Position numbers and translations under genes: made by a program
The notes under the pieces: model-generated
Told to the model about the DNA's origin: nothing
What the model saw: only the letters and a program-made list of their open reading frames with translations
Database searches by the model: none
Origin: Novipirellula herctigrandis
GTDB taxonomy: Bacteria; Planctomycetota; Planctomycetia; Pirellulales; Pirellulaceae
Direction of reading: 5' to 3'
DNA length: 64,000 bases
Assembly (NCBI GenBank): GCA_007859835.1
Contig: SJPJ01000001.1
Location: 6,547,632 to 6,611,631 of the forward strand
Part shown: positions 2,439-61,264 of the stretch, piece by piece
Layout of the letters: each line of letters opens with the position of its first letter
Numbering within the stretch: position 1 is the first letter of the stretch

Positions 2439-3461
2439 TCAGCGTTTGGTCATTTCCATGATGACCACATTCTCGTTGCTCTCGGCGACGATTCGAACTT
2501 CTTCAACGCTTGATTGATCCAAGTCATCCGCCAACACCATCATCTGGCCGCGGCTTCGGTAGATAAGGTGCCAATCCATATACATTTCCATGTAACCGAC
2601 GTCGCGAATTTCGGGAAGAAAATTCGCGATAACCAACCGTCCACCTGGCCGAACATGGTCGAACAGGTTTGCAGTCAAACGCTTCGCCGTGGAATCAGCC
2701 AAGTAGTCGTAAAGGCCAGTCGTGTAAATCAAGTCAAAGGTGCCTAGGTCAAGCCGTCCAGTCAACATTCGTCGAATATTGGCAACGACCGCATCAACTC
2801 CGAATCGACCATACGCTTGTTGGATCTCTTCGAGGCTCTGTGCGTCTGCATCCATCGCAACGAATCGATCAAACCGGTTTCGCCGAATGGCCGACGAAAG
2901 GCTCGCTTCGCGAAGGTGTCCCGCTGCGACTGCAAGCGCATGTTGGTTTGATTTCTCTCGCCCGATACGATCGAGCAATTCGGCGATGTAACAACGTCGC
3001 TCTCGCACGCCGGCTGATGCGGGGGCTCCGCTGGTATAGTTGAAGATTGCCGAGCCAAGCGCCGTCGCATCGGGTTGATTCCAATCTTCTTCACGGCCGT
3101 AAATGTAATCCATCATGACTGCATCGCCCGCGTAACCGCGTGGTTTTTCGAATGCTCGGCGAGTGAAGGGATCCTGATGGACCAGTTGGCACAGGGCATG
3201 GTTTCTGCCGAATTGAATCATTTCTTTCCACTGATCCTTCGGCGTTTTTTCACGGATCGATCTTAGTCCTCGAAACAATTGATCGACGGCGTTTTCAATT
3301 TCAGTGGCGTTTGCGTTTGGGGACGCGAGTACGGAATGGACTTTGTCGAGCAGGTCTTCAAGCAAGCCATGGCTAGGATCTCCCTTTTCATCTTGATGGT
3401 GATCTGGTTCGGTTTGTTGACTGAAGGTAGGTGTGACGTGACTTTGTGTAGCTAAGCTCAT
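2439..3461 (-). CDS. Class I SAM-dependent methyltransferase (EF/3-OH-PAME synthase-like family)
   Basis: The 340-residue protein has a helical N-terminal part with RGYAGDAVMMDYIYG, a motif I associate with the methyltransferases often annotated as extracellular-factor 3-hydroxypalmitic acid methyl ester biosynthesis proteins. The C-terminal half is a Rossmann methyltransferase: AVAAGHLREASLS stands at the SAM-binding motif I position, FVAMDADA at motif II, DLIYTTGLYDYL at motif IV, and RPGGRLVIANF near motif VI. Methyl transfer is well supported; the substrate is not. A lipid or small acid is possible by family analogy only. It stands alone between a convergent FadL gene and a divergent signalling gene. 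Confidence 0.72.
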   Translation of the reverse strand: MSLATQSHVTPTFSQQTEPDHHQDEKGDPSHGLLEDLLDKVHSVLASPNANATEIENAVDQLFRGLRSIREKTPKDQWKEMIQFGRNHALCQLVHQDPFTRRAFEKPRGYAGDAVMMDYIYGREEDWNQPDATALGSAIFNYTSGAPASAGVRERRCYIAELLDRIGREKSNQHALAVAAGHLREASLSSAIRRNRFDRFVAMDADAQSLEEIQQAYGRFGVDAVVANIRRMLTGRLDLGTFDLIYTTGLYDYLADSTAKRLTANLFDHVRPGGRLVIANFLPEIRDVGYMEMYMDWHLIYRSRGQMMVLADDLDQSSVEEVRIVAESNENVVIMEMTKR

Positions 3462-6900: not shown

Positions 6901-9589
6901 AGGGGCCAATGCGTTCTATCGGATCGGGTGCTTCTCGGAGGCCGTTCAGTGGGCTTCGAAAATGTACGAATCAGGACGTGAAATTGGCGATTTACAGGCT
7001 TCGGGAATCAGTCTCGACGTGTGGGCTCGATGCTCACCCGAAACGTTGCCTTTAGACATGATTGCCGAAGATGCTGCGCAAGATCGTCCCGATGCACAAA
7101 GCCATGCTCAGTCTCAGCTAGCGTATGCCGTTGTTCTCTTGCATCATGGCCAACTCAATGACGGAATTGACACGTTGGTGGGCGCGATCGAACGGTGCCG
7201 AAATGCGGGGCACCTGAACACTTATATCAGTCCCTGTTATGCATGGCTTGGAACGGCTCGACGGCAACAAGTGGAAGTCACGGATTGTCGAGATGGCCAT
7301 CGCCGCAAGCAACGAATACGCGATGCCCGAACAGCGACGAGAAAGGCATTGAAAATCGCGAAGTTCTATCCCGCAGATCTTGCCCATTGTTGGCGAGAGA
7401 TCGCGGCGCTAGATGAAATTGAAGGAGATATTGGCAAGGCTGTTGCACACTTGAAACGGAGTGTGAGAGCAGCACAACTTTATGCGCAGCGAGCCGAAGA
7501 ACTTGAATCACTGCAAATACTTGCTGCCTTGCATGATCGAGAAATCGAACAGTTCGGTCCTTTGCCATTGCGATATCAACTGCGTCTTGACGAGCTTTTG
7601 AAAACCGTAGAGACGTCACAGCAAGGGGGCCCGTCCGTGGGCGATGCGGACGCGAATCTGTCGCTCGCGGATCGTTTTGTAACACTGTTGAAGTCGGGGC
7701 GACGTATTGCGCAAGCCTTGACGGCAAGCGGTGTCTACATCGAAGCAAGTGAATCGGCACGACGACTACTGCGTGGTCAAAACGCCGATGTCGTCATGGT
7801 ACGGAGTGAGCAGGGTGATTTTCAGTTCGAAGCAGCGTCCGCGTTGCCGTTTGATGAGCAATGTCAATGTCGTATCGATGCAAATGTCGACCTTGTCCGG
7901 GTCGCACTTCAGCAAGGGTACGCAGTTTGTCGAAACGACAATACGCTAGAAACGAATGGTAAACCAAATACAGCGAATGGAAGCACGCTGGCTGCTCCGA
8001 TTCTGTTTCGGGGCCACTTCGTCGCAGTGATTCTGGTCTCTCATTCGGAATTGTCCGATTTGTTCGGCAAGGACGAACTCCGCATTGCTGACTTTGTCAC
8101 CACGCTCGCTGGTGCGGCTTTGGAAAATGCCGATGGTTTTCTTCAGCTGAGGCAAATGAACGATACACTCGAACAGCGTGTTCTGGAACGTACCCAAGCA
8201 GCCGAAGATCGCGCAAAACAACTTGCCGAAAAGAATTCGCAGTTGCACGAAACCGAAGAACAGCTCCGCGAAGCGATGACCGTAGCGAATGCAGCGAACG
8301 CAGCAAAAGGACGCTTTTTGGCAACGATGAGCCACGAGATACGGACGCCACTTAACGGTATTCTCGGAATGACTCGGCTCGCTCAGCAAAGCTCCGTTGA
8401 CGGACGCCAGAAGGGCTACCTCGATACGGTTCAGGAAAGCGGCCAATCCCTGTTGAATCTTATTAACGATTTACTCGACTTCTCGAAGCTTGAAGCCGGC
8501 AAAATGGTGATTGAAGAAATTCCCTTTCGTCCGCAGGAATTGGCGGGCGAAGTGAGTCGATTGATGGGAGCGTCTGCCTGGCAAAAGGGGTTGGAATTGA
8601 GCTGCGAGCTTGCTCCCGATTTACCTCAAATCCTTGTTGGTGACCCTTCAAAGCTTCGTCAAATCATCGTGAATCTTGTCGGCAATGCACTGAAGTTCAC
8701 GGCCGAAGGAAGTGTGGCACTTATGATGCAAGCGACTCCAAGAGACCATTCGTCGATTATGCTTTCGATTGCAGTAAAAGATAGCGGATTGGGAATCCCC
8801 ATTGAGAAGCAAGAGAAAGTGTTCGAATCGTTTTCGCAAGCCGATAGCAGTACAACGCGTCGCTTCGGAGGCACCGGACTAGGCCTCGCGATTTGTCGTG
8901 AGCTTGCAGAAAAAATGAACGGGACGATCGAACTTGAAAGTGCTGTTGGGTTCGGTAGCACGTTTACGGTGACGATCCCACTAGCCATAGCCGAGGGAGA
9001 CACTGCCGAGATAGATATTACCGAGATAGATATTGCCGAGATAGACACTGCCGAGATAGATATTGCCGAGATAGATATTGCTGAACGACATACAGTCGAA
9101 CGAGGTTTCGAAAGCGAATCTCAACCACACCTTTCGAAAGAAAATAATGTTAGCTTTGGCGATCCATGTTCAAGCGATGATAGCCGTTGTGAAAATCGAT
9201 CGGCGCGGATTCTTGTCGCCGAGGATGGAGTGATTAATCAAGAGGTCATTGTCGGCATCCTTGAAATGGAAGGTTACGAGGTCGTCGTTGCGAACGATGG
9301 ACAGGAGGCTGTTGAGCGAGCAGCCGAGCAAGACTTCGATATTTGTTTGATGGATGTCGACATGCCAAAGATGGATGGCATGGACGCAACGCGGGCTATT
9401 CGAGCGTCAATGCATAATGTTAAGTCGGCTTTGCCAATTGTCGCGATGACCGCACATAGTGGCGACCAAATCTGGGGTCAATGCAAAGAAGCTGGAATGG
9501 ACGGGCATCTGCCCAAACCGATCCAGCCTGACAAACTATTCGAGACCATTGAACGTTATGGTACCATTGAACGTTGTGTTGTGGTGTAG
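3965..9589 (+). CDS. Giant hybrid: pseudokinase, AAA-like module, TPR-like region, GAF, histidine kinase and receiver
   Basis: About 1874 residues. Order: Ser/Thr-kinase-like domain (about 60-270), AAA/STAND-like ATPase module (about 295-560), long TPR-like helical region (about 680-1180), GAF (about 1240-1390), coiled coil, HisKA with MSHEIRTPLNG (His near 1456), HATPase with NLVGNALKF, DSGLGIP and GGTGLGLAI, an acidic repeat linker, and a receiver with ILVAEDG, LMDVDMPKMDG and LPKPI (Asp near 1797). This resembles the known fusions of STK, ATPase and histidine kinase. The first two modules look catalytically dead: HGWLNGECV replaces the HRD loop, LRDVSA replaces DFG, and GPEAGVRRN replaces the GxxGxGKS P-loop. 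The histidine kinase and receiver look active. I chose the ATG at 3965; it lies downstream of a promoter-like element. Cytoplasmic, since no membrane segment was seen. Confidence 0.9.
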   Translation: MIKVASPFPEFRDYVAVSGIMCRGPLATCVVQSVRSSESFDAEWIDASNTSGELFGCVDKHWRSNERCQPTGSLKQLAFFGSHERVSRIIETPRGRPLNEFVFQRRHDVATSLTTAIELATCLADWHTQSRTHGWLNGECVYCEESGKVQLRDVSAVHHLAEIDFSLLDVHDIAFLSPESSGSLAREVSPASDLYSLGVMLFAMLSGRAPIEASNASEYLNQQLCVEAPRLREFGLDISKPLDDLVARLLFRDPRDRYQTANALLDDLRYIADLDTTGDEELRYAVGTSDIRKTMTEAAFVGYEADLSRTQLAIQSALSGTCCVQLITGPEAGVRRNYIDEIEMRAASVGMAVLRGGASTTTNPKPLQSLDTVFSAITTICNQDPALATRLAELTQEHSATLIDLLPNLASYWQRSLVVTGPDAYGGQRVQVALEDLFVALAKEPSGAAFLFDDLHAADELTRNVVRSLIERTQNEDTRFLFCAISSDSADALSYGESLDAMHLGPLSDDALQRHLESMAGKLSDTIKSSIVEVADGNVTIASAMLRRMIDSKAIKLTDQGWVPDGVLRDALRHDETFTGLLECQIDELSSRALNVLSTAAVVGQRFELAILADVSKQRYADVLEVVTEALGRRLLWRDSQQGWFRFANDPIHRQLCSSVSDDVRKELHRRTAAYLKKHTPDNVYDLAFHYDAAEISDLALEYSLEAAASARHKHSLSVAEDQLCIAKRWVAQDDLATRLIISGGLGEIHLLTGRYDAAGEYLHEALSLATTPLDKARIQQQIGELAFKRGRFADAATEYQQALSMTGARVPLSLMTMLLCLALQTARQVIHAFAPKKWIARRGDLTPLDCLRMQLLSQLSRVYWFSRHRLWTLGNHLRSLNEAELYNPSETLAAVYSEHGPVMSLLRWFGRANQYFERSLVIRRQRGDVWGQGQSYHYGSVVKLAECQFQDAIETSHTAVEMLRQTGDFWEMNMARYQGANAFYRIGCFSEAVQWASKMYESGREIGDLQASGISLDVWARCSPETLPLDMIAEDAAQDRPDAQSHAQSQLAYAVVLLHHGQLNDGIDTLVGAIERCRNAGHLNTYISPCYAWLGTARRQQVEVTDCRDGHRRKQRIRDARTATRKALKIAKFYPADLAHCWREIAALDEIEGDIGKAVAHLKRSVRAAQLYAQRAEELESLQILAALHDREIEQFGPLPLRYQLRLDELLKTVETSQQGGPSVGDADANLSLADRFVTLLKSGRRIAQALTASGVYIEASESARRLLRGQNADVVMVRSEQGDFQFEAASALPFDEQCQCRIDANVDLVRVALQQGYAVCRNDNTLETNGKPNTANGSTLAAPILFRGHFVAVILVSHSELSDLFGKDELRIADFVTTLAGAALENADGFLQLRQMNDTLEQRVLERTQAAEDRAKQLAEKNSQLHETEEQLREAMTVANAANAAKGRFLATMSHEIRTPLNGILGMTRLAQQSSVDGRQKGYLDTVQESGQSLLNLINDLLDFSKLEAGKMVIEEIPFRPQELAGEVSRLMGASAWQKGLELSCELAPDLPQILVGDPSKLRQIIVNLVGNALKFTAEGSVALMMQATPRDHSSIMLSIAVKDSGLGIPIEKQEKVFESFSQADSSTTRRFGGTGLGLAICRELAEKMNGTIELESAVGFGSTFTVTIPLAIAEGDTAEIDITEIDIAEIDTAEIDIAEIDIAERHTVERGFESESQPHLSKENNVSFGDPCSSDDSRCENRSARILVAEDGVINQEVIVGILEMEGYEVVVANDGQEAVERAAEQDFDICLMDVDMPKMDGMDATRAIRASMHNVKSALPIVAMTAHSGDQIWGQCKEAGMDGHLPKPIQPDKLFETIERYGTIERCVVV
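8990..9079 (+). repeat. In-frame 15-bp tandem repeat (six units) in the kinase-receiver linker
   Basis: Six 15-bp units, consensus GCCGAGATAGATATT, encode AEIDI-like pentapeptides between the ATPase domain and the receiver of the hybrid kinase. The first unit is the most divergent (GAGGGAGACACT core). Unit length keeps the frame, so copy-number change would lengthen or shorten an acidic linker without disrupting the protein. Confidence 0.93.
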
Positions 9590-9760: not shown

Positions 9761-10528
9761 TTAAACGCTTAGCACTTCGGTTGCTCCGTAGCGGTCAGCA
9801 ACCAATATCGGGAATTGCTTGCCAAGCGCACTTCGGTGGGTGTCCAAGACCAACTCGGGATCATTGTTGTGTTCGGACAGATGAGCTAGGCAAGCCCATT
9901 GCAACTTGGCGTTCTTTATTCGCTTGAGCAAACCAGCCGAATCGTTGTTGGACAAATGGCCTTTGGGACCGCTGATCCGTTTCTTAAGCGATTCGGGGTA
10001 CGGTCCGGTGTCGAGCATCATGGGGTCGTAGTTGCTTTCCATGATCACCGCGTCGAGTGATTCGACGACACCGTCGAGACCATCGAAAACGTGGCCCAAA
10101 TCGGTCAGTATTCCCAATCGATGCGAGCCATCGTCGACGACAAACGCAACTCCATCGGCGGCATCATGCGGCGTTCGAATCGTCTCAATCTTGACGCTGC
10201 CGAAAACCATTGTGCTGCCAGAATCAAACAGCTGAATGTTCTGCATTGGGCCAAGTCGTGGTTTGTTGTTAATCGCACGAATCGTCCCCCTGCTGACATG
10301 GATCGGCAAGCCAAATTTTCGATGATAGACCCCCATGCACCGGGTGTGGTCACTATGGTCATGCGAAATAAGTAACGCGTTGACATCACGAATCGACTTG
10401 CCGTGACTAGCAAGTCGTTGTTCCGCTTGCACGCCACTGATGCCGGCATCAAAAAGCAATTTCACTCCGCCTGTTTCGACGTAGATGCAATTGCCGTTAC
10501 TTCCCGATTGTAGAGCGATGACTTCCAT
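9761..10528 (-). CDS. MBL-fold metallo-hydrolase (WalJ/YycJ, PhnP-like group)
   Basis: The N-terminus MEVIALQSGSNGNCIYVE is typical of the WalJ/YycJ branch of the metallo-beta-lactamase fold. The metal-binding signature LISHDHSDH is intact, and later ligands appear in TIRTPHDAADG, GILTDLGH and ACLAHLSEHNNDP. Relatives hydrolyse phosphodiester bonds (nucleic acid 5' ends or cyclic phosphates); the substrate here is unknown. The 255-residue length fits. I prefer the ATG at 10528 over one 27 nt upstream because family members begin at this point; neither has a strong ribosome-binding site. Cytoplasmic. It is followed, in the same direction and 57 nt upstream, by the Tat-exported protein gene. 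Confidence 0.85.
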   Translation of the reverse strand: MEVIALQSGSNGNCIYVETGGVKLLFDAGISGVQAEQRLASHGKSIRDVNALLISHDHSDHTRCMGVYHRKFGLPIHVSRGTIRAINNKPRLGPMQNIQLFDSGSTMVFGSVKIETIRTPHDAADGVAFVVDDGSHRLGILTDLGHVFDGLDGVVESLDAVIMESNYDPMMLDTGPYPESLKKRISGPKGHLSNNDSAGLLKRIKNAKLQWACLAHLSEHNNDPELVLDTHRSALGKQFPILVADRYGATEVLSV

Positions 10529-10585
10529 GGCCAAAAGTGTAGCGTCCCAAGACATGTAAGGCGATAGTCATTGATCGATCTTTCG

Positions 10586-12310
10586 TCATTGGCTTTTGGG
10601 TGTGTTCGCTTCGACGAGCGCACGCATTTTTGGCATTTCGCTGATTGGTTGGTCATAACGCTGTAAATGCCCCCAACTTCCGTACCGTGTTCCTTGGCGA
10701 CCAATGCTGGAGAACGCCATGTAGAGACGGCATTGGGCATCGGCGTGAAGTTTCAATTGCTTTAAGTAACAATCGTGCATGCCTGCGGAGAATTGAGCTT
10801 CCTTTAACGCTGGCATGTAGGACGTTTCTTCCTGGCCCTTCGGTTGGATGTGTTGGCCACCTTCGTAAACGAGAAAATCCACCCCTTCGTCTTGGCAAAG
10901 ATCACGGATGTCGTTGACCATTTCGACGGAATCTGTTTTGATGATCTGTTGCATGTCTTGGATGACTTGATCGCTTGTCAACTTGGGGCCAGCCTTTGCC
11001 CACTTTTCGTAGACTTCGTCACTGGGGCCAAAGTAACCTGCAACGGTCATCGCGTCACATTTGCCAAGTGATAGCACTGTCCGTAGGCAACGGGCGGTGA
11101 TATCCAACCATGCAGCTTGTCCGGCGGCGACCCTGACAAGCCGGTTACGGTCTATTCCAACAAAAATCTTTTCCCAAAGGGCATGGATTCGGTGGGTGGC
11201 GATTCCCAAGCGTTCAGGGAAATTCGTTCCCACTTGGTTGGCGGCTACATCGAAATCATTGAACTCGGGTGTGGTTCCTTGTTTCCACCCCTCGATGTTT
11301 TGTTTTTCGAGCAATTCACCGAGTCGCTTACTGTGTAAATTCCAGTGGGCTTGCTGGAATTGCCAATTCCATACTTCGTTGCTGTATTCGACATAGACTT
11401 TCAACGAAGGGTCGAGTCGGTCACGAACCAACTTTGCCATTTCGGTGATGTATTGATCGTCAGCCATGTGTGGGACACAGACCCATGCGTCGCATTTTGC
11501 AGCATTGGCTAGGTCAACGCACAACTCGATGGCAACACCGGACGCGTAACGCTTTTTCCATGGCTCCATCGGCGAACCCCAAAACCCGATTGCGTCGCCT
11601 TGCGTGCCCGTTTGCGTGAAAAAGTCAAGCGTTTTTCGGTTGGCCCAATGAACGTTGATGCTGTCGTTGGTCCCTAGCCAATCCATAAACCGTAGTGCGT
11701 GAAACTGTTTGCAGTAGTCGACCACTTCGGGCAAAAAGGGTTCAGCGGCCAAGTCCGATTGCTCGAATTCTGCGGCAACAATGCGGATATTCCGAAGATG
11801 GTTTCCACGCTGGCTACGCAAGATTCGAATGATCTCAAGATTGCCGTCGCCAACAGCATGGGCCATTTCAAGTTCGATCCGACCAGGCGCGGAAGCGACA
11901 ATTTTCGTTCGGCCAGCGACGTCGATTTGCCCCTCGCCTTCGTAAACCAGCACGTAACGACCTGGTTTACAAACGTTCGGCAAGATCGTGAAGACGTCTT
12001 GCTCGGTTCGGTCACTGCCCTCAAAAGGAACCTCGACTGGATAGCCATTGGCGTCGATCGCCATCGCCTCATTTTGCTCCGTATTCCAAGCTCCTTGGCC
12101 ATCGACGTTGCGAGTGAGCCAAGCACGGGCTCCCCACATCAAATTCTTGAAGGGGAATCCCGGCTCGTAGTCGGCGATGCCGGCTAAGTTCATGCCGATT
12201 GGCAATCGCGGCGCGTCCGACGTATCTGCTGCAAACGAACAAGAGGGCAATGCGGAGACGCTAGCGGTAGTTGCGGCTAGGTGAAAGAATCGACGTCGAT
12301 TGAGATGCAT
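10586..12310 (-). CDS. Tat-exported glycoside-hydrolase-like protein
   Basis: The start MHLNRRRFFHLAATTASVSA is a twin-arginine signal (RRRFF, then a hydrophobic run), so the folded protein is probably exported. The mature part has YVEYSNEVWNWQF, in which the Asn-Glu pair at a strand end resembles the acid/base site of clan GH-A glycosidases. LVYEGGQH near the C-terminus could carry the nucleophile Glu. Planctomycete relatives are often labelled cellulose-binding domain proteins, but I see no separate binding module. Likely role: attack on an unknown polysaccharide outside the cytoplasm. An ATG nine codons upstream (12337) is less likely because the Tat motif should be near the start. Confidence 0.65.
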   Translation of the reverse strand: MHLNRRRFFHLAATTASVSALPSCSFAADTSDAPRLPIGMNLAGIADYEPGFPFKNLMWGARAWLTRNVDGQGAWNTEQNEAMAIDANGYPVEVPFEGSDRTEQDVFTILPNVCKPGRYVLVYEGEGQIDVAGRTKIVASAPGRIELEMAHAVGDGNLEIIRILRSQRGNHLRNIRIVAAEFEQSDLAAEPFLPEVVDYCKQFHALRFMDWLGTNDSINVHWANRKTLDFFTQTGTQGDAIGFWGSPMEPWKKRYASGVAIELCVDLANAAKCDAWVCVPHMADDQYITEMAKLVRDRLDPSLKVYVEYSNEVWNWQFQQAHWNLHSKRLGELLEKQNIEGWKQGTTPEFNDFDVAANQVGTNFPERLGIATHRIHALWEKIFVGIDRNRLVRVAAGQAAWLDITARCLRTVLSLGKCDAMTVAGYFGPSDEVYEKWAKAGPKLTSDQVIQDMQQIIKTDSVEMVNDIRDLCQDEGVDFLVYEGGQHIQPKGQEETSYMPALKEAQFSAGMHDCYLKQLKLHADAQCRLYMAFSSIGRQGTRYGSWGHLQRYDQPISEMPKMRALVEANTPKSQ

Positions 12311-51579: not shown

Positions 51580-53424
51580 ATGGCTCCAATCATCCCTGCT
51601 CGACTTTCAAATCTCGCCAACGGCTGGTGGCGACTCCATTTCCCGACCATGCGGTTTGGGGAGGCTGATTGGTTGAATCGATCGGTCTCGTTTTTTGTGT
51701 TGGCCTTCATCGCCATGTTTGTCGTCGGATGCGGTGACGATTCGGATGTTGTGCGAGAGATCCAAGCTCAGCGGCAAACGCGGCTACAGACCCAAACGAA
51801 GCAGGACCATTTGGGGGAAGTTCACAACATGCTGACGCGATTGATCGAATTGAACCCCGACGAATCGCGGCGCCAAATCACCTATCACCTCAATCGTTGG
51901 ACCGATGCGAATCCGATCCCTGAGGAAGACTTGTCACCGTCGGTGATCCCAGCAATGTTCAAAACGATCAAGGACTTGGTGCCCGAAACACTTGCTGATG
52001 AGCAACTTCGTGGCGACATTTTCATCAAAAACGACGTGGACCATTTACGAGACGCGTATTTGTTTCAAACGATCCAGAATTGGGTCGATGCACCGCCTAG
52101 TGATGATGTGTTGCTGACGCAGTGGTTGGCGGACCAACAGGCGACGTTGGGCGAGGCCAACACGAGCAAGCTTCAAACAGCATGCCGCCTATTTGATTGG
52201 ACGATTCGAAATATTGCGATTGAGCCAGTCATTGAGCTTCCCAATATGCAGATCACTCCACCGGAGTTCCCGTTGGGGATGGTTTTCCAAGGTCCTGGGT
52301 ATCGGCAAACGGATTATCAAGCGATTTGGCGTGGGACTGGCGATGCGTTGCAGCGGTCAGGTGTGTTTACGCAGCTATGTAATCAAGCGGGAATTGTCGC
52401 CGCGGTCTTGGCGATCCAATCAACCGAAACGGGCGAGCTACAACCATGGTCGGTGGGGGTTCTAATCGGCGACGACATTTACTTATTCGAACCGTCGCTT
52501 GGCATGTTTATCTCTGGTCCCGACCAGATCGGGATTGCCACGCTTGCTCAAGCACGAACCGATGCGTCAGTGATGCGTCGGTTAAACATTCCCGGCTTTT
52601 TTGACTACCCGTATAGCAAGCCAGATGTCCAGCAAAACATTGCCCTGCTGAATGTCTCGCCGGTTGCGATGAGTGGCCGGATGAAACACTTGCAGTCACG
52701 TTTGACTGGCGAGAAACGAATGGCACTCTACAACGACGTTGATGCTATCGGGAAGAAACTCGATGATGTTGGCGGAGTGGCAGGAGTTCGGCTGTGGGCG
52801 GTCCCGGTTCAATCCGAAGTGTACAAGGAGACGGTTGAGCAAGCTGCGGAACGTGATCCGCTATTGGCATTTTGGTTCTTTTCGCGGTGGGCCGTATTGG
52901 AATCGGAAATGCGGTCGAGCAAGCAATTTGCACTCGCTCGCTGGCGTCACCTTCACGGACAATTTGACACCAATGATGAAGGGGATGTAAAAGGGGCCCG
53001 ACCGCTCTATCTCGAGATGCGAGCTCCCGAGTTTGAAATTGAGGATTTGCGAATCGATGTCGAGTTACAGAAAGCCTACGGAGTGCGACGTGAACTTGGC
53101 CAGGATCCCCAAATTTACGATCGTCAATTGCAGCAAGCACAAACGATGATGCGAATGGGCAAGCAAACCGCGACGTATTGGCTGAGTTTAATTCAATACG
53201 ACGACGGACGCTTCGACAATGCTGAAACATGGTTCCGAAAACGCGTGCTTGATAAAAGTCAAGTCTCACGTTGGGTCCCCGCGGCCCGTTACAATCTCGG
53301 TCGTGCGATCGAGCATTTGGACGGAGAATCCGATGCGATTGAACTCTACAAAAACGACGGCAACTTACAAGAACACGGAAATCGAATCCGAGCTCGATTG
53401 TTGTCAAAGTCGGTTAGTGATTAG
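51580..53424 (+). CDS. Lipoprotein with TPR-like C-terminus, unknown function
   Basis: A leader ending FVLAFIAMFVVGCGDDSD has a plausible lipobox (V-V-G-C), so the protein is probably membrane-anchored. If ATG 51649 is the start, the leader is of normal length; from 51580 it would have a 23-residue N-terminal extension. The middle part (LCNQAGIVAAVLAIQSTETG) looks like the transglutaminase-like fold region with a Cys at NQAG and a following GVLIGDDIYLFEPSLG, but the triad is not clear. The C-terminal third has repeats such as TYWLSLIQYDDGRFDNAETW typical of TPR. Substrates unknown. Confidence 0.65.
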   Translation: MAPIIPARLSNLANGWWRLHFPTMRFGEADWLNRSVSFFVLAFIAMFVVGCGDDSDVVREIQAQRQTRLQTQTKQDHLGEVHNMLTRLIELNPDESRRQITYHLNRWTDANPIPEEDLSPSVIPAMFKTIKDLVPETLADEQLRGDIFIKNDVDHLRDAYLFQTIQNWVDAPPSDDVLLTQWLADQQATLGEANTSKLQTACRLFDWTIRNIAIEPVIELPNMQITPPEFPLGMVFQGPGYRQTDYQAIWRGTGDALQRSGVFTQLCNQAGIVAAVLAIQSTETGELQPWSVGVLIGDDIYLFEPSLGMFISGPDQIGIATLAQARTDASVMRRLNIPGFFDYPYSKPDVQQNIALLNVSPVAMSGRMKHLQSRLTGEKRMALYNDVDAIGKKLDDVGGVAGVRLWAVPVQSEVYKETVEQAAERDPLLAFWFFSRWAVLESEMRSSKQFALARWRHLHGQFDTNDEGDVKGARPLYLEMRAPEFEIEDLRIDVELQKAYGVRRELGQDPQIYDRQLQQAQTMMRMGKQTATYWLSLIQYDDGRFDNAETWFRKRVLDKSQVSRWVPAARYNLGRAIEHLDGESDAIELYKNDGNLQEHGNRIRARLLSKSVSD

Positions 53425-53541: not shown

Positions 53542-54141
53542 CTAGAACTGCTCAATCCGAAGTCTCCAATCCACTGGATTGAATTTTGGCAACGTGGTGT
53601 CAATGATTCCCGCACTTGCTAATTCCGTGGTGGATCGGGAACCATCGATTTCGCAGGATTTTAGCAAGACGAGTTCGGCTGCGTCGACTTGTTTTGCTAA
53701 TAACGCCGCCAGCGAATCCGTTGTGGTTCGCCAATCCGTCGGTAGGTCAAATGCGTTTTCACGATTGTAGAAGGCATTGACGTTGACAAGCGTTGGTCGG
53801 TCGGTTACAAAACCGACATCCGTCGCACCGTGAAGCTGTTGCAACGAGTCGATTCGGTGCCAGGTTGGAAACCACTGATGGAAGATTTCGAACGTGTGCT
53901 GCAACAATTCGATGCATCGCCAGTGCGTTTGAGTCGCATCGAGCGATCGGCATTGATCCAAGCTGCGAACGGCGTCGACTAGTTCACCACCGCCGACGAT
54001 GGCCACGTTTTGGGATGGCTGGCCGTGAGCGATTTCCTTGATACGACGCGGCATGCGGCGTGTCAAATCCTTTCGCAACAACAAACTACCGCCAATTTTG
54101 ATGACGCGTCGTATTGTTTTCTTTGGAAGCGATTGGTTCAT
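53542..54141 (-). CDS. Amino-acid-kinase-fold protein, MfnE-like
   Basis: 199 residues. The amino acid kinase fold is shown by VIKIGGSLLLRKDL, VAIVGGGELVDAVRSLD and DSLAALLAKQVDAAELVLLK, followed by SCEIDG. The length fits MfnE, the kinase that phosphorylates an aminomethylfuran intermediate in archaeal methanofuran synthesis. MfnF-like and MfnD-like genes lie directly upstream on the same strand (10-bp and then 6-bp gaps). Function in a furan C1-cofactor pathway is inferred from family and neighbours. Alternatives are other small amino acid kinases. Cytoplasmic. Confidence 0.7.
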   Translation of the reverse strand: MNQSLPKKTIRRVIKIGGSLLLRKDLTRRMPRRIKEIAHGQPSQNVAIVGGGELVDAVRSLDQCRSLDATQTHWRCIELLQHTFEIFHQWFPTWHRIDSLQQLHGATDVGFVTDRPTLVNVNAFYNRENAFDLPTDWRTTTDSLAALLAKQVDAAELVLLKSCEIDGSRSTTELASAGIIDTTLPKFNPVDWRLRIEQF

Positions 54142-54151
54142 AGGGCAACAT

Positions 54152-55174
54152 TCAAATCGTCGGCTGCTGTTTGCCTTTTAACAATCGGGCGACTGCGTAC
54201 GATGGCGCACATCGAGAAATGGACGATCCGAGCTGATCCGCGAGGAGGATTCGCAGCTTGTCCTTGCATGGTTTCAATAGATCGCTTCCATGACCGCTGA
54301 TCACGAACGTATCTGTTGATAGTCCGTGGAGTTCCAAGACCTTGGTTATTGATGAATCGATTCTATCAATGGCGTTTTGCATCACTTGTTTTGCCAGTGG
54401 AACTGCCTCTCCACTCGAAACCGTCCGACGATCAAGACCAATCATGCGTGCCAATCGGTTCGTCGCGAAGGAGCGTGAGCGGGGTTTGCCGTCAGCGCTT
54501 TCATTGTCTTGGGGATGCTCCGGTTCATTTTTTAATACAATTCTGGCATCATCGATTGTTGCAAACACCTCGTTCATTACCGGACAGCGTTTTCCACGAA
54601 ACTCAAAGCAGTCGACAATCGCGCAAACCGGTGTCCGTTGGCATCCGACGTAGATAAGCGAGCCTTCGGTGAGTCGGTCGTAATCGGTTTTCGCTTGCGT
54701 GGCGACTCGGCCTGAAAGAATGGGGATAATATCGGTGGTCGTAGAACCAATGTCGACAAGCAACCCGGTCGAGCAAATCTCGCGACCAACGAAATTTGCT
54801 AATGCATGCCAATTTGCGGCTGCCAACAAATCGGCCTCTTTGTCAATGCAAACGGATTCGCGGAAGCGTCCATCGACGCCGTAGAAATGCGTGCTCGGAA
54901 TTTTGCACTTTTTGGCGGCCGTGCGAACATGGGCGACAATGTGGGCGACGCCTTCAATGCGATCGACGAAACAGTCAGTCAATTCGCCGGTCATGACCAC
55001 GGCGATCGACGTTGGATTTTCAAAGAATGAGATTGCTTCGCACAGCTGATCGGCGAGTTGATCGGGGTGTCGCCACAAAGCGAACGATCGCGAACGCGTA
55101 TGACCACGATCATCCGCTAGCTTAAGATTGGCACCACCAATATCGATGCCGAGAATGCGTTTTGGATGTGTCAC
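54152..55174 (-). CDS. Hydantoinase/oxoprolinase-like C1-pathway protein, MfnF-like
   Basis: 340 residues. RILGIDIGGANLKLADDRGH matches the ATP-binding N-terminus of this group (hydantoinase/oxoprolinase family; H4MPT-linked C1 transfer pathway protein). VDIGSTTTDIIPI is a second phosphate-binding strand, and VVMTGELTDCF is also typical. In archaea MfnF joins the phosphofuran to tyramine-derived substrate; in methylotrophs related genes are needed for methylofuran-dependent C1 oxidation. Position between MfnD- and MfnE-like genes supports the same role. Confidence is high for family, moderate for function. Confidence 0.8.
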   Translation of the reverse strand: MTHPKRILGIDIGGANLKLADDRGHTRSRSFALWRHPDQLADQLCEAISFFENPTSIAVVMTGELTDCFVDRIEGVAHIVAHVRTAAKKCKIPSTHFYGVDGRFRESVCIDKEADLLAAANWHALANFVGREICSTGLLVDIGSTTTDIIPILSGRVATQAKTDYDRLTEGSLIYVGCQRTPVCAIVDCFEFRGKRCPVMNEVFATIDDARIVLKNEPEHPQDNESADGKPRSRSFATNRLARMIGLDRRTVSSGEAVPLAKQVMQNAIDRIDSSITKVLELHGLSTDTFVISGHGSDLLKPCKDKLRILLADQLGSSISRCAPSYAVARLLKGKQQPTI

Positions 55175-55180
55175 TCCGCT

Positions 55181-56206
55181 CTATATCGGTTCAGCGATTG
55201 CGGCGTTATTGATCCAAACTTGGCCGCTTGGTGTCCAGCGAACCGAGTTCACTCCTGCGATACAGGAAACGGGGCCCGTTTCCACATCGAAAAGTCTTGC
55301 TGCTATGTTTCCCTGAATCATCTGACGCAAACCGACGTAGCTGGTTGTCAAGCGTGGGTTGATTTCCACCACGTAGTCTTCGCTGGCACAATCTCCAAGC
55401 AATAAATCAAGACCGACGAACCCATGAACGGTTGGCGGCATGGCTGCGATCGCACGGGACGCCAACACGGCGGCTCGTGACTGCGAGTCGTCGTCAAGCG
55501 GACCTTGTCCGCCCGCATATTCACACGAGTCGCTTTCGAGCATTTGGCTGACTGCGGGCAAGAAGACTTGGTGTTGGCCCGACGCAACCAACGATACCGA
55601 TATCGCTCGTCCAGAAACCCACGGTTGAAGAAGCAAATCATCCTTCAATTCCGCTCTTGCCTCGTCATACGAATCGAACGTGCGGATTTGCTGTGTGCCA
55701 CAACCATCGCGTGGCTTCAGCACGTACCGATCGTAACCTTGGATTTCCGATTCGTAACGGTTGTCGGAGCTCGCAACATAGTAGGGGTGAGCCACGCCTG
55801 ACGAAAGGAGCACTTTCGCGGTTTGAAGTTTGTCGCTCGCAACGCGAAGGAAATCCCCACTTCCGGCGATCACATCAACGCCAGCGGCACGCAGCATGGC
55901 CACCGATTTAGCCAGTATTCCATCGTTTTCGGGTGCAACTATTAGAGCTGCGTCACAATTGCGAGCCGCCGCAACCCATTGGCCGAAAAATGCCAAGTCC
56001 GAACGCATTGGGACAATTTCCGCCGCATCGAGTTCCACGTCGAAACGCGGATCAAGGGGAGCTGTCACGTCGGCGAACTCCGATAAGTCCGTGACAATTG
56101 CACGAAGCATTGCGGAGCCTTCGTCGCGAAGTGAGGAAGGTATGTCGACTAAATCCTTGTCGGCCAACCCGCCACCGCACGTGTATTCGCCCACGAAAAT
56201 ACGCAT
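55181..56206 (-). CDS. ATP-grasp ligase, MfnD-like
   Basis: 341 residues. MRIFVGEYTCGGGLADKDL is very like the start of MfnD/ATP-grasp ligases (EY-x-x-GGG). The ATP-grasp core is seen in YVLKPRDGCGTQQIRTFDSY, LLQPWVSGRAISVSLVAS and GFVGLDLLLGD with YVVEINPRLTTSYVGLR as the metal-binding end. MfnD ligates glutamate to tyramine. It is followed at 6 bp by the MfnF-like gene. Gap to the SufT-like gene upstream is only 27 bp, so it may be transcribed with suf. Substrate assignment is by analogy. Confidence 0.75.
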   Translation of the reverse strand: MRIFVGEYTCGGGLADKDLVDIPSSLRDEGSAMLRAIVTDLSEFADVTAPLDPRFDVELDAAEIVPMRSDLAFFGQWVAAARNCDAALIVAPENDGILAKSVAMLRAAGVDVIAGSGDFLRVASDKLQTAKVLLSSGVAHPYYVASSDNRYESEIQGYDRYVLKPRDGCGTQQIRTFDSYDEARAELKDDLLLQPWVSGRAISVSLVASGQHQVFLPAVSQMLESDSCEYAGGQGPLDDDSQSRAAVLASRAIAAMPPTVHGFVGLDLLLGDCASEDYVVEINPRLTTSYVGLRQMIQGNIAARLFDVETGPVSCIAGVNSVRWTPSGQVWINNAAIAEPI

Positions 56207-56233: not shown

Positions 56234-56554
56234 CTAAAAAATGCCGAGATGGTCTCGGGCATCATCGGTCATCAAATCGGGGGACCAGGGTGGGTCCATA
56301 ACGACTTTGACTTCCGCCGAATCCACTTCATCGAGTCCCTCGGCAGCCGACTTGGTTCCGGCGACCAATTGAGGTCCAGCCGGACACATCGGGCTCGTCA
56401 TTGTCATGTCGATCTGCACGTCGTGGCGACCGTCTTCTTTCTCGTCGCCGACGCGAAGTTCATAGATCAATCCAAGATCGACGATGTTTACGAAAAGTTC
56501 GGGGTCAATGACCTGTTTCAAAGCCTCTCGAACTTTATCTTCTGCAAGTGCCAT
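56234..56554 (-). CDS. SufT/MIP18-family (DUF59) Fe-S assembly factor
   Basis: 106 residues. DPELFVNIVDLGLIYELRVG and MTMTSPMCPAGPQLV, with the single Cys of the SPxCP motif, then VVMDPPWSPDLMTDDARDHL, define this group (SufT, PaaD, MIP18). In Staphylococcus and Mycobacterium SufT helps mature Fe-S proteins under load. Its place right after sufD fits this. 157 bp separates it from sufD, and 27 bp from the ATP-grasp gene. I leave the symbol blank because family members differ in role. Confidence 0.85.
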   Translation of the reverse strand: MALAEDKVREALKQVIDPELFVNIVDLGLIYELRVGDEKEDGRHDVQIDMTMTSPMCPAGPQLVAGTKSAAEGLDEVDSAEVKVVMDPPWSPDLMTDDARDHLGIF

Positions 56555-56710: not shown

Positions 56711-58015
56711 TTATTCGTATTCACGCACCTGGCGGGCGATCGCAGCCCCAAGGGCGTCACGAACGCTTGGGATCGTGATTCGATCGAAAATCTGCTGGAA
56801 GAAGCCGCTGACGATCATTCGTGTCGCTTCTTTCCGCGTAAACCCACGACATTGGGCATAAAAAATTTGCTCTTCATCGACCTTCGCCGTGGTGCTGCCG
56901 TGAGTGCAGCGCACGTCATCCGCCTCAATTTCCAGGCCTGGGATCGAGTCCGCTCGGGACGCTTCGGACAAAACAAGGTTGTCGTTTCGTTGATATCCGT
57001 CCGTTTTTTGGGCGATCGGATCGACTTTGATCATCCCTCGCCAAACGGTTCGACTCTTGTCCTGCTGAGCTGCTTTATACAAGAAGTCGCTATGGCAAGA
57101 AGGTGCGCGGTGGTATTGCTGAGTGTGGTAGGCCAAATGTTGCCGTCCCTCGGTGAACATGACTCCGTTGACTTGGCTGTCAGCACCAGGGCCAACGAGA
57201 TCAACCGATTGGTTCACCTTCGACAGCATCGACCCCATTGCCGCAATCGTCCACTGGATCGTCGCGTCTTTGCCTACCAATGCTTTTTGGTGAGCGAAGT
57301 GGTAGGCGCCGTAGCCCCATTCCTGCAAATTGACATAGCGTAAATGCGAGTTGGCCTTTTGAACCACTTCGACGGAGCCGACATGCAGCCCTTTGGACTT
57401 TTCGGCAACACCGTTTGATTCGTGAAGCACGGTTGCTTCCGCACCTTCATCGAGCACGATGAGCGTATGGGTCGTGTCGGTTCCACCATCACTCATCATC
57501 GATCCGATGTACAGCGGTTTGTCGAGAACGACGCCGCGTGGCACGTACAAAAATTGCCCCCCAGCCCAGAACGCTGCATGCAGTGCTGCAAACTTGTCAC
57601 AATCAGGATCGAACGCCGTAAACAAGTGCGGACGAACGATTTCGGGATGCGCTTGACTGGCTTTGGACAGGTCGCAAAAGATGACACCTTTATCGGCAAG
57701 TTCTTGGTCTAGCGATTCGCTGATAACGTAGCTATCGACCGTTTCGATCAAACCACCGAGGTCGACCCCCTGACGCAGTTGTGCTTTCGAAGGCACGTCG
57801 CGTGATTCCGATGCGGGCAATCCAAATCGATCTAACTTGAAAGCGCGGATATCGGTGCGAATCCATTCTTCCGCCCGACGCTCGGGCCATGCCATCGCTT
57901 CGAAATGTTGCCAAGCGTCGCGACGGAGCTCAATGAGCCATTGTGGTTCCGTTCGCGAGCGGAGGAACGATTCGAAGCCGACGGAATCAAAAGTAAGAGA
58001 GGTCGTTTGAGTCAT
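56711..58015 (-). CDS. sufD: Fe-S cluster assembly protein SufD
   Basis: 434 residues. It has the SufB/SufD beta-helix core with the C-terminal helical end EASRADSIPGLEIEADDVRC, then THGSTTAKVDEEQIFYAQCR, GFTRKEATRMIVSGFFQQIF, in which the conserved His after C-x-H is visible. FLYVPRGVVLDKPLYI marks the N-terminal part. SufD pairs with SufB on SufC2 as scaffold. Located after sufB with a 165-bp gap. The N-terminal helices (RAEEWIRTDIRAFKLDRFGL) are typical of SufD, not SufB. Confidence 0.94.
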   Translation of the reverse strand: MTQTTSLTFDSVGFESFLRSRTEPQWLIELRRDAWQHFEAMAWPERRAEEWIRTDIRAFKLDRFGLPASESRDVPSKAQLRQGVDLGGLIETVDSYVISESLDQELADKGVIFCDLSKASQAHPEIVRPHLFTAFDPDCDKFAALHAAFWAGGQFLYVPRGVVLDKPLYIGSMMSDGGTDTTHTLIVLDEGAEATVLHESNGVAEKSKGLHVGSVEVVQKANSHLRYVNLQEWGYGAYHFAHQKALVGKDATIQWTIAAMGSMLSKVNQSVDLVGPGADSQVNGVMFTEGRQHLAYHTQQYHRAPSCHSDFLYKAAQQDKSRTVWRGMIKVDPIAQKTDGYQRNDNLVLSEASRADSIPGLEIEADDVRCTHGSTTAKVDEEQIFYAQCRGFTRKEATRMIVSGFFQQIFDRITIPSVRDALGAAIARQVREYE

Positions 58016-58180: not shown

Positions 58181-59587
58181 TTAGCCGACGCTTCCTTCCA
58201 TTTGCAGTTGAATCAAGCGATTCATTTCGATTGCATACTCCATCGGCAACTCTTTTACGAGCGGCTCGATGAAGCCATTGACGATCATCGTGCTTGCTTC
58301 TTGCTCGGTCAGACCGCGGCTAAGCAGATAGAACATCTGCTCTTCGCCGATTCGCGAAACGCTTGCTTCGTGTCCAATTTGAACATCTTGTTCACAGATT
58401 TCAATGTAAGGATACGTATCGCTGCGGCTTTCAGGATCCAAAATCAAAGCGTCGCAAACAACGCTGTTCTTGCTGTTGTGGGCCCCAGGTTCGACGCGAA
58501 CGAGACCGCGATAGCTACTTCGTCCGCCATTTTTGCTGATGCTCTTGCTGATGATTTGGCCCGTTGTATTGGGAGCCGCATGCACTAACTTCGCACCCGC
58601 ATCTTGATGTTGTCCTGCACTCGAAAATGCGATCGACAATATCTCACCGCGAGCACCCGGTTCCATCATGTGGACCGCCGGGTACTTCATCGTCAATTTG
58701 CTGCCCAAGTTCCCGTCGACCCATTCCATCGTTGCATCGCCATAGGCGTAGGCACGTTTGGTGACGAGGTTATAGATATTGTTGGCCCAGTTTTGGATCG
58801 TCGTATAGCGGCACCGCGCGTTGCGTTTGACAATCACTTCGACCACGGCACTGTGAAGGCTTTCCGTTGTGTACATTGGCGCGGTACAGCCTTCGACATA
58901 GTGCACGCTGGCACCTTCATCGACAATGATCAATGTCCGTTCGAACTGGCCCATGCTTTCCGCGTTGATACGGAAATAGGCTTGAAGTGGGAAGTCGATG
59001 TGGACGCCCTTGGGAATGTAAATGAACGATCCACCCGACCAAACGGCGCTATTGAGTGCTGCGAATTTGTTATCGTCTGGCGGAATGATCTTGCCGAAGT
59101 ACTCACGCAGTAGTTCGGGATGCTCGCGTACAGCCGTATCGGTGTCGGTGAAGATTACACCTTGTTTGGCAAGGTCTTCTTCAAGCGAACCGTAAACGAC
59201 TTCGCTTTCGAATTGGGCCTTCACACCGGCCAAGAACTTCTTTTCGGCTTCAGGAATGCCTAGTTTGTCGAACGTGTCCTTAATTTCCTGAGGTACATCG
59301 TCCCACGACTTACCTTGGCCGGATGTTGGTTTGAGATAGTAGTAGATGTCTTGGAAGTCGAGGTCGATCGACCCGCCCCAATTGGGCATTGGCCGTTCTT
59401 CGAATTTCTTCAACGACTCAAGACGGAATTTCCGCATCCAATCGGGTTCGTTCTTGATATCCGAGATTTGATTGACAACCTCAGCGCTGAGCCCTTTCTT
59501 TGCCTTAAAGACTCCGGTCGTCTCGGTGCGGAAGTTGTATTTGTTGATTTCGCCAACTTCAGCTTTTTCAGTTACGTCAGTAGACAT
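58181..59587 (-). CDS. sufB: Fe-S cluster assembly protein SufB
   Basis: 468 residues. SufB is the scaffold on which clusters form. [20 protein letters not shown] holds the conserved Cys of SufB, and ENTRY segments [20 protein letters not shown] and [20 protein letters not shown] are diagnostic. [20 protein letters not shown] is the usual membrane-like strand. The C-terminal part has the conserved Glu ([20 protein letters not shown]) and a Cys in front of it. It sits between sufC and sufD, and no sufS or sufE lies nearby. Confidence 0.96.
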
Positions 59588-59710: not shown

Positions 59711-60526
59711 TTAAACAGTTGCTTCTTCGGCAAGCATCTCTTGATTTGCTGCTTCTGCTTCAGGGTACGCTTTGCGGATACGGTCGTAGCCGTGACGATG
59801 CAGTTCATCGGCCAATTCCGTGCCGCCTGTTTCAACCAAGCGACCACCCAGCATCACGTGCGTGAATTCCGGTGGATTGTGCTCAAGCAATTTGTCGTGG
59901 TGCGTGATGATCAATAGCCCCATCTTGCCGTGACCAATCTCGGCAATTGACTCACTCGCCAAGCGAACTGCGTCGGCATCCAAACCGCTATCCGTTTCGT
60001 CAAGAATTGCGAATTTCGGCTGCAGCATTGCCAGTTGAAGAATCTCGGCTCGCTTCATTTCGCCACCCGAAAAACCATCGTTGACGTAACGGCGAGCGAA
60101 TTCGGTATCCATACGCAAATGAGCCATCTTTTCTTTTAGCTCGGCGCGGAACTCACGCATCGGAATCAGTTCTTCGCCTTCTTTGCGGTCGGGTCGGCGC
60201 ACATTGGTTGTTGCATGGCGAAGGAAGTCAGCCATTTTGACCCCCGGAATCGCCATCGGTCGTTGGAAAGCCAAGAAAATGCCAGAACGAGCTCGTTCGT
60301 CAGGAGCCATTGCCAGAACGTCTTCACCGTCCATCGTGATTGCGCCTTCGGTCACCGCGTAGCCAGGATGGCCCATGATTGCGAGTCCGAGCGTACTCTT
60401 GCCACTGCCGTTTGGCCCCATCAAAGCATGAGTCTCACCATGATTGATCGATAGATTTACGCCGCGAAGGATCGGTTTATCACCAACGGAGACGTGCAGA
60501 TTTTTGATTTGCAGTACGTGTGTCAT
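59711..60526 (-). CDS. sufC: Fe-S cluster assembly ATPase SufC
   Basis: 271 residues, an ABC-type ATPase of the SufBCD complex. Walker A GPNGSGKSTLG, signature FSGGEMKRAEI, Walker B AILDETDSGLDAD and the switch His in LLIITHHDKLLE are intact. ALMGPNGSGKSTLGLAIMGH is the usual SufC start region. It is slightly longer than E. coli SufC because of an inserted segment RRPDRKEGEELIPMREF and a tail (YPEAEAANQEMLAEE). It begins about 48 nt after the SufR-like gene, so both are probably in one mRNA. Confidence 0.96.
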   Translation of the reverse strand: MTHVLQIKNLHVSVGDKPILRGVNLSINHGETHALMGPNGSGKSTLGLAIMGHPGYAVTEGAITMDGEDVLAMAPDERARSGIFLAFQRPMAIPGVKMADFLRHATTNVRRPDRKEGEELIPMREFRAELKEKMAHLRMDTEFARRYVNDGFSGGEMKRAEILQLAMLQPKFAILDETDSGLDADAVRLASESIAEIGHGKMGLLIITHHDKLLEHNPPEFTHVMLGGRLVETGGTELADELHRHGYDRIRKAYPEAEAANQEMLAEEATV

Positions 60527-60574: not shown

Positions 60575-61264
60575 TTAATTGGATGAATCCACCGATGACG
60601 TATCGGTTGCGAATTGACAAAGGTGATCACCGTCGAGACGGCAACTACTAAGGTGTACCGGGCGGCCAAGTGCTTCGGAGAGCATTTCCTCTTCCAAACG
60701 GCACATCGCTCGGTCGTCGGAGGTGTCGGTCAGCGACGGATAGGGACAAGCCCCCACGTCGATGACAGGCAGCGCGCCTGTATGCGAAATCTCCGCTGCA
60801 ATGTGACGCTCGGCCAACATTTCGGAGACGCGTTTCATACGTGATTCAAGCGATTCATCGTCGATCGCGGCTCGATGAATCCCCTCAGCCACTCGTCGTC
60901 CCAAACGGGCCGCGACAGCGGAAAGGACGTTTTGCCGAATCTCAGAATCGGGAATTGCCAAAATCTCTTGCCACATCGCTTCGGCCAAGTCCGCCGGGTT
61001 CGCGCCAGCACTGCGATGGCCATCAACCGTCAGTTGGTATTCAAATGTCGGCCGACCTCGTCCCGCGACAATTTTTTGACGCTCGATCAACCCCATCTCC
61101 AACAAACGCTCGATCCGTTGGCGGATGGCGGTCGCGGTCACACCAAGTTGTTCGGTCAATTCCCCAACTCCGAACGCTTCGCCACTACGCATCACAACAA
61201 GCAAAGCTCGATCAACCGATCGCAAAGACTCAGGCTGAGAGATGGTATTTGGGGTGCTAGGCAT
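60575..61264 (-). CDS. SufR-like Fe-S-sensing transcriptional regulator
   Basis: 229 residues. The N-terminal winged helix (FGVGELTEQLGVTATAIRQR, IERLLEMGLIERQK) fits DeoR/SufR-type regulators. The C-terminal part has four cysteines in a pattern CPYPSL, AMCRLEEEMLSEALGRPV, HLSSCRLDGDHLCQF that matches the Fe-S cluster ligand region of cyanobacterial SufR. SufR represses suf when Fe-S is sufficient. Leading the suf operon in the same direction supports the role. Symbol not assigned because the mechanism here is inferred. Confidence 0.8.
   Translation of the reverse strand: MPSTPNTISQPESLRSVDRALLVVMRSGEAFGVGELTEQLGVTATAIRQRIERLLEMGLIERQKIVAGRGRPTFEYQLTVDGHRSAGANPADLAEAMWQEILAIPDSEIRQNVLSAVAARLGRRVAEGIHRAAIDDESLESRMKRVSEMLAERHIAAEISHTGALPVIDVGACPYPSLTDTSDDRAMCRLEEEMLSEALGRPVHLSSCRLDGDHLCQFATDTSSVDSSN

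Follow-up and report, generated by a model that had tools for sequence, protein, structure and literature searches.

A stretch of 64,000 nucleotides from the planctomycete Novipirellula herctigrandis (the window) carries three tightly packed genes whose products are relatives of MfnD, MfnF, and MfnE, proteins of methylofuran and methanofuran synthesis. All three are complete open reading frames (ORFs) on the minus strand: an mfnD-like gene for an ATP-grasp ligase of 341 amino acids (55181..56206), an mfnF-like gene for a TIGR03123 / hydantoinase-A protein of 340 amino acids (54152..55174), and an mfnE-like gene for an amino-acid-kinase protein of 199 amino acids (53542..54141). An earlier reading of the sequence alone had proposed this trio, with gaps of 6 bp (mfnD-mfnF) and 10 bp (mfnF-mfnE), and the ORFs lie where that reading placed them. 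The direct linkage to sufT and the suf genes that it also described is present in the window and recurs across much of the order Pirellulales. We think it very likely that these three genes form the mfnD-mfnF-mfnE unit for methylofuran biosynthesis and serve tetrahydromethanopterin-linked formaldehyde oxidation in this Pirellulaceae-type planctomycete.

The suf genes and the trio form a single string on the minus strand, in the transcription order SufR-like, SufC, SufB, SufD, SufT-like, MfnD, MfnF, MfnE. First comes a SufR-like winged-helix regulator (60575..61264), which has 37.8 bits to TIGR02702, the SufR model (below the cut-off of 178.8), and whose position is kept in relatives. It is followed by sufC (59711..60526; TIGR01978, 322 bits, cut-off 213), sufB (58181..59587; TIGR01980, 708 bits, cut-off 346), and sufD (56711..58015; TIGR01981, 256 bits, cut-off 222), and then by a sufT-like DUF59 gene (56234..56554) that scores 63.7 bits to PF01883 (cut-off 23.5) and 101 bits to TIGR03406 (below its cut-off of 202.6). 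The mfnD-like gene starts 27 bp downstream of the sufT-like gene.

What the three proteins are

The resemblance to MfnD, MfnF, and MfnE held up, as family membership, fold, and matches to betaproteobacterial MfnD all agree. MfnD passes the Pfam cut-off for ATP-grasp_3 (PF02655, 110 bits) and matches the MfnD (Orf1) of Aquabacterium and of Azoarcus with 62 and 60 bits, while it has no match to two proteobacterial MyfA (OrfY) proteins or to the MyfA-like protein of its own genome. Among 12 sequences, its ATP-grasp residues K126, K164, N283, and R285 are invariant and E281 is nearly so. MfnF passes TIGR03123 (271.2 bits, cut-off 244.1) and matches a solved archaeal relative, 3c0b (E = 1.3e-40). 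MfnE is the weakest of the trio by sequence: it passes the Pfam cut-off for AA_kinase (PF00696) with 35.5 bits. Its AlphaFold model, built from 29 sequences, is confident (predicted local distance difference test score 94.3, predicted template modeling score 0.90), and of the 350,542 PDB chains compared with this model, the top match is MfnE of Methanococcus vannielii (7qrh; E = 2.4e-9, template modeling score 0.70 by query length), ahead of UMP kinases.

The closest parallel lies in one-carbon (C1) islands on plasmids of Azoarcus sp. KH32C and Aquabacterium olei, which have the same D-F-E families in the same order and orientation and with the same tight packing as the window. Identities of these two sets to the window's proteins are 28 and 29% for D, 34 and 32% for F, and 28 and 25% for E. 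In PMC5020050 and PMC8141765, on "archaeal-like" C1 islands of proteobacteria, mfnD, mfnF, and mfnE correspond to orf1, orf9, and orf21. The setting is different, however: in the betaproteobacterial islands the trio has mfnB, mch, and fae for neighbours (as well as fhc in Aquabacterium), whereas in the window it is behind sufT.

The rest of the pathway, in this genome and across the class

The best families of the three proteins are those of the C1 pathway, and fhcA/fhcD, mch, and fae are present elsewhere in the genome, so neither of the results that would have refuted the sequence-only reading was obtained. The genome encodes MfnB, MyfA-like and MyfB-like proteins, CitG/Orf17, FhcA, FhcD, Mch, and Fae, and their genes are scattered rather than beside the trio. 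There is an fhcA-fhcD-fhcC-like gene order, in which the FhcC-like protein scores 96 bits to Aquabacterium FhcC but, with 30.2 bits, stays just short of its Pfam cut-off (32.5); mch adjoins the myfB-like gene; and fae and mtdB have the myfA-like gene divergently oriented beside them. The MyfA-like and MyfB-like proteins score 66 and 126 bits to their Aquabacterium counterparts, and the latter is also a RimK-family member, above the RimK cut-off. In PMC8141765, the methylofuran core is credited to MfnB, MfnE, and MfnF, and the polyglutamate tail is attributed to MyfA and MyfB; that paper also describes orf17 as essential and leaves the transaminase MfnC unassigned in bacteria. Because the same genes occur in N. 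herctigrandis, we expect its coenzyme to be a polyglutamate methylofuran.

We predict that this coenzyme would be of the tyrosine type, because no MfnA-type tyrosine decarboxylase was recognised in a PF00282 profile search of the genome, though MfnD is present. The best PF00282 protein scores 74.8 bits to MfnA (cut-off 299.4) and 112.7 to PanP (cut-off 606.1) and looks PanP-like by its sequence; the second match has 20.8 bits. Further typing of PF00282 proteins covered three of them. Among 11 searched genomes with Fae, FTR, MfnB, and CitG, three (G290, G185, and G012) have no PF00282 match, though mfnD is present. PMC8141765 calls the ligase that joins tyrosine and glutamate unknown, and the planctomycete MfnD is, by inference only, a candidate for it.

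Across the class, MfnF is present in 237 of 248 genomes, and it follows Mch: of 48 genomes searched for both, 36 have both, 8 have neither, 1 has MfnF only, and 3 have Mch only (Fisher p = 3.7e-6, although related genomes are not independent). Eight of the 11 genomes without MfnF also lack Mch. In six genomes from two families of the order (G011, G043, G059, G174, G178, and G227), MfnF, Mch, MfnB, Fae, FTR, and CitG are all missing; a search of these six with an FhcB alignment found nothing in five and a 45-bit match in an 899-amino-acid frame in G043.

Several observations weigh against the assignment to methylofuran synthesis. All three proteins pass the TIGR03123 or Pfam cut-offs but fall far below those of the archaeal NCBIfam equivalogs: MfnD has 73.1 bits against 400 (NF040722), MfnF has 204.6 against 520 (NF040623), and MfnE has 35.8 against 300 (NF040622). 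Aquabacterium MfnD is likewise below the NF040722 cut-off, with 38.6 bits. In these scores and in having no recognised MfnA-type decarboxylase, N. herctigrandis differs from the archaeal systems, while fold and family are common to both (7qrh for MfnE, 3c0b for MfnF). Its FhcB is a candidate at 38.6 bits, which does carry four cysteines. Among the loci in which MfnF is near SufT (see below), MfnE was found in 41 of 52. Some genomes have only part of the pathway: G138 (96% complete) has MfnF, MfnE, and MfnB without Mch, Fae, or CitG, and G144 (98% complete) has Mch, Fae, and CitG without MfnF or MfnB. Mch without MfnF also occurs in G157 (88% complete) and G247 (82%). Finally, Mch is present in four of the six genomes of the family that have no MfnD match, which may reflect the low sensitivity of a one-sequence query or a real absence of MfnD.

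G138 (L053, L116, and L126) and G144 (L117) thus retain opposite halves of the pathway, each with a divergent FTR. This FTR/FhcD paralog, at 115-148 bits, also occurs in G271, G290, G110, and G062 (L116-L121 for the six genomes). Beside it, in L116-L121, we found no match to FhcB or FhcC, and FhcA matched only in G062, with 23 bits.

The suf-mfn neighbourhood in relatives

We compared the window with 140 loci: the 80 named loci nearest to the window's MfnF and three sets of 20 hand-picked from the listed matches, so this is not a random sample. Six loci without MfnF in the stretch were left out of the linkage count; one of these (L077) has SufT-MfnD and five (L085, L087, L093, L094, and L095) have MfnD alone. 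With the window, this gives 135 rows, of which eight with less than 3 kb upstream were not scored, leaving 127. The rows are not independent, as L091 and L170 are identical and others are nearly so.

SufT lies within 6 kb in 52 of the 127 rows and not in the other 75. Every one of the 52 linked rows contains MfnD; among them are Blastopirellula marina, Rhodopirellula maiorica, and two Rubripirellula metagenome-assembled genomes. Dozens of loci that have diverged from one another share the neighbourhood, so it is not due to chance. On a quick tree of MfnF, all of the linked rows are on one side of a branch with a support of 93 (Shimodaira-Hasegawa-like approximate likelihood ratio test), with L045 joining at the drawn root; the other side holds 57 rows, three of them unscorable, and has no linked row. 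The fewest changes of state on this tree is 14, which implies that the junction was often broken or regained, but the tree has many open forks and the count cannot separate gain from loss.

The genes are close together in relatives as well. The gap between SufT and MfnD has a median of 75 bp, and 48 of the 53 cases on the same strand do not exceed 369 bp; gaps of under 100 bp separate MfnD from MfnF in 73 of 82 cases and MfnF from MfnE in 80 of 85. The wide gap between sufD and sufT (a median of 369 bp in 50 loci) led us to consider a separate promoter there, which we dropped as a general rule, since 33 of the 35 linked rows that fall outside the window's subclade turned out to have a Rieske gene at this locus. 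We also rejected a terminator-like site where sufT ends: there were 9 matches, as compared to a mean of 11.1 after shuffling, and by eye the hairpin is not conserved in 18 relatives. On the other side of the trio, the window encodes a 614-amino-acid protein (51580-53424) with no Pfam or NCBIfam match, and three relatives (L076, L078, and L079) keep this protein between the trio and kdsA.

Outside the order, none of 20 loci from the class is linked. Six of eight class genomes outside the order (G144, G008, G104, G007, G012, and G001) have the same suf genes as the window, sufR-C-B-D with sufT downstream, but nothing recognisable as mfn after sufT; of the other two, G046 has another gene order and G002 has sufT alone. 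Four further stretches came from genomes that lack C1 markers: three (G043, G059, and G011) have suf and sufT without mfn, and one (G178) has sufT alone. Overall, sufT was found in 21 of 25 genomes searched, including six of eight without C1 markers. As sufT persists without C1 markers and without adjacent mfn genes, we rejected the idea that SufT is a protein dedicated to C1 metabolism. Because suf and sufT stand without mfn elsewhere, the simplest account is that the trio joined an older suf-sufT string.

Is the junction selected or neutral?

We think that the linkage is probably neutral: the trio would have landed behind sufT once and persisted because rearrangement is slow, with the parts working independently. 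A single origin would confine the linked rows to one side of the MfnF tree, where they are indeed found, and the suf string with sufT but without mfn (in six of eight genomes outside the order and in three of four without C1 markers) also fits. Furthermore, unrelated genes belong to the conserved block. Of the 35 rows that are linked but lie outside the window's subclade, 33 have the Rieske gene, 30 have nuoB, and 21 have the flanking gene down2 within the stretch, and the retention of this larger block favours slow rearrangement. (In many suf loci of Pirellulales, sufR and sufC have nuoB between them and a Rieske ferredoxin gene separates sufD from sufT, as in L036 at 2809-3414 and 7238-7552; neither was found in the window or its subclade. 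In L088, L173, L201, and L214, Rieske and sufT are in one ORF.)

On the other hand, in the window's own subclade of 19 MfnF rows, the junction has outlived most of its neighbours. Seventeen of these rows keep sufT beside mfn, and none of the 17 was found to have Rieske, nuoB, down2, or up1, all of which other lineages conserve here, although some of the contigs are short. In L082 (at 10418-11938, from G023) and L155 (at 7659-8718), both among the 17, SufR adjoins SufT-MfnD and the stretch showed no sufCBD. The contig of L078 ends at SufT. Also, where mfnD has been separated from mfnF (G203, L181, L204, and G277, the last with MfnF outside the stretch), MfnD is still beside SufT. In L181 and L204, mfnF-mfnE faces mfnD-sufT-suf on the opposite strand, as if half of the locus had been inverted between mfnD and mfnF. 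That the junction outlives other neighbours and that MfnD stays with SufT favour some selection for the junction.

If the linkage is selected, then methylofuran synthesis might be co-transcribed with SUF, in line with the co-expression that the sequence-only reading suggested, and regulated along with it by SufR-type sensing of iron-sulfur (Fe-S) clusters, for example because FhcB, the partner of the coenzyme, has such a cluster. We consider this possible but doubtful. The short gaps between SufT and MfnD, the subclade, and L082 and L155 are all in its favour, but the spacing between SufT and MfnD varies and has hairpins in some relatives. The subclade itself has a 209-bit match to one further flanking gene in L154 and weak FHA matches in L081 and L156, and the conservation of unrelated flanks in other lineages suggests that gene order may just change slowly. 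Furthermore, D-F(-E) are together but away from suf in four Pirellulales loci (L046, L054, L084, and L090), and in five loci, already mentioned, MfnD has neither MfnF nor SufT in reach.

An Fe-S client for the methylofuran pathway exists in principle, judging from cysteine motifs. All 16 of the planctomycete FhcB/FwdB-type loci, including the candidate in N. herctigrandis, have CxxCxxxC and a fourth cysteine, which fits selection for the linkage, and the archaeal FwdB 5t5i has the CxxCxxxC motif at the same place. Chain 6s6y_B (361 amino acids), which we take to be FhcB of M. extorquens, aligns only downstream of the CxxCxxxC stretch. But G012, G104, and Aquabacterium, in which suf and mfn are not linked, have the four cysteines too, which counts against selection for the linkage. 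Six of the 16 loci look like FwdB: four have the metal-site cysteine and two, L256 (G290) and L255 (G114), have an in-frame TGA exactly at that site, as expected for selenocysteine. According to PMC4807772, a case of this kind has been published for a planctomycete, a Rhodopirellula isolate; the selenocysteine reading has no bearing on the window.

A proposed route and what it would mean

From homology, we infer the following route. MfnD would join glutamate to tyrosine or tyramine as the first step of the side chain. MfnB and a transaminase would make aminomethylfuran phosphate, which MfnE would phosphorylate to the furan pyrophosphate, and MfnF would couple this with the glutamyl-tyrosine or glutamyl-tyramine. 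The MyfA-like and MyfB-like ligases, whose genes lie apart from the trio, would extend the polyglutamate tail, and the finished coenzyme would work in the Fhc complex. In an ancestor of the order, the mfn unit most simply came behind the sufT of an older suf string, and it would then have stayed in many lineages.

A more specific proposal, which we think unlikely, is that methylofuran synthesis in Pirellulales has become part of Fe-S homeostasis: mfnDFE would form the end of a suf transcript under SufR control, persisting as sufR-sufT-mfnD even where sufCBD is gone; the Fhc complex would match this with an FhcB that retains the four-cysteine motif of cluster type; and MfnD would act on tyrosine and so be the tyrosine-glutamate ligase that PMC8141765 lists as unknown. 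It is very unlikely that the trio makes a different compound, outside of C1 metabolism: although the weak scores of MfnD and MfnE against their archaeal models and the partial pathway in G138 would fit, the trio co-occurs and co-disappears with the C1 pathway, it has the same gene order inside proteobacterial C1 islands, and the fold of its MfnE matches the archaeal one.

C1 genes have long been known from planctomycetes (PMC5020050 and PMC9874027), and mfnD is discussed as orf1 in the former paper. Our literature search, which did not extend to subscription papers, found no publication on linkage between suf and mfn, and no measurement of methylofuran in a planctomycete was evident in it. If methylofuran biosynthesis is indeed the role of the trio, then this locus together with the genes elsewhere in the genome makes up most of the predicted methylofuran gene set of a planctomycete, along with a prediction of the type of coenzyme. 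And because the gene string extends across much of the order, it allows a test of whether a one-carbon coenzyme and the supply of Fe-S clusters are under shared control.

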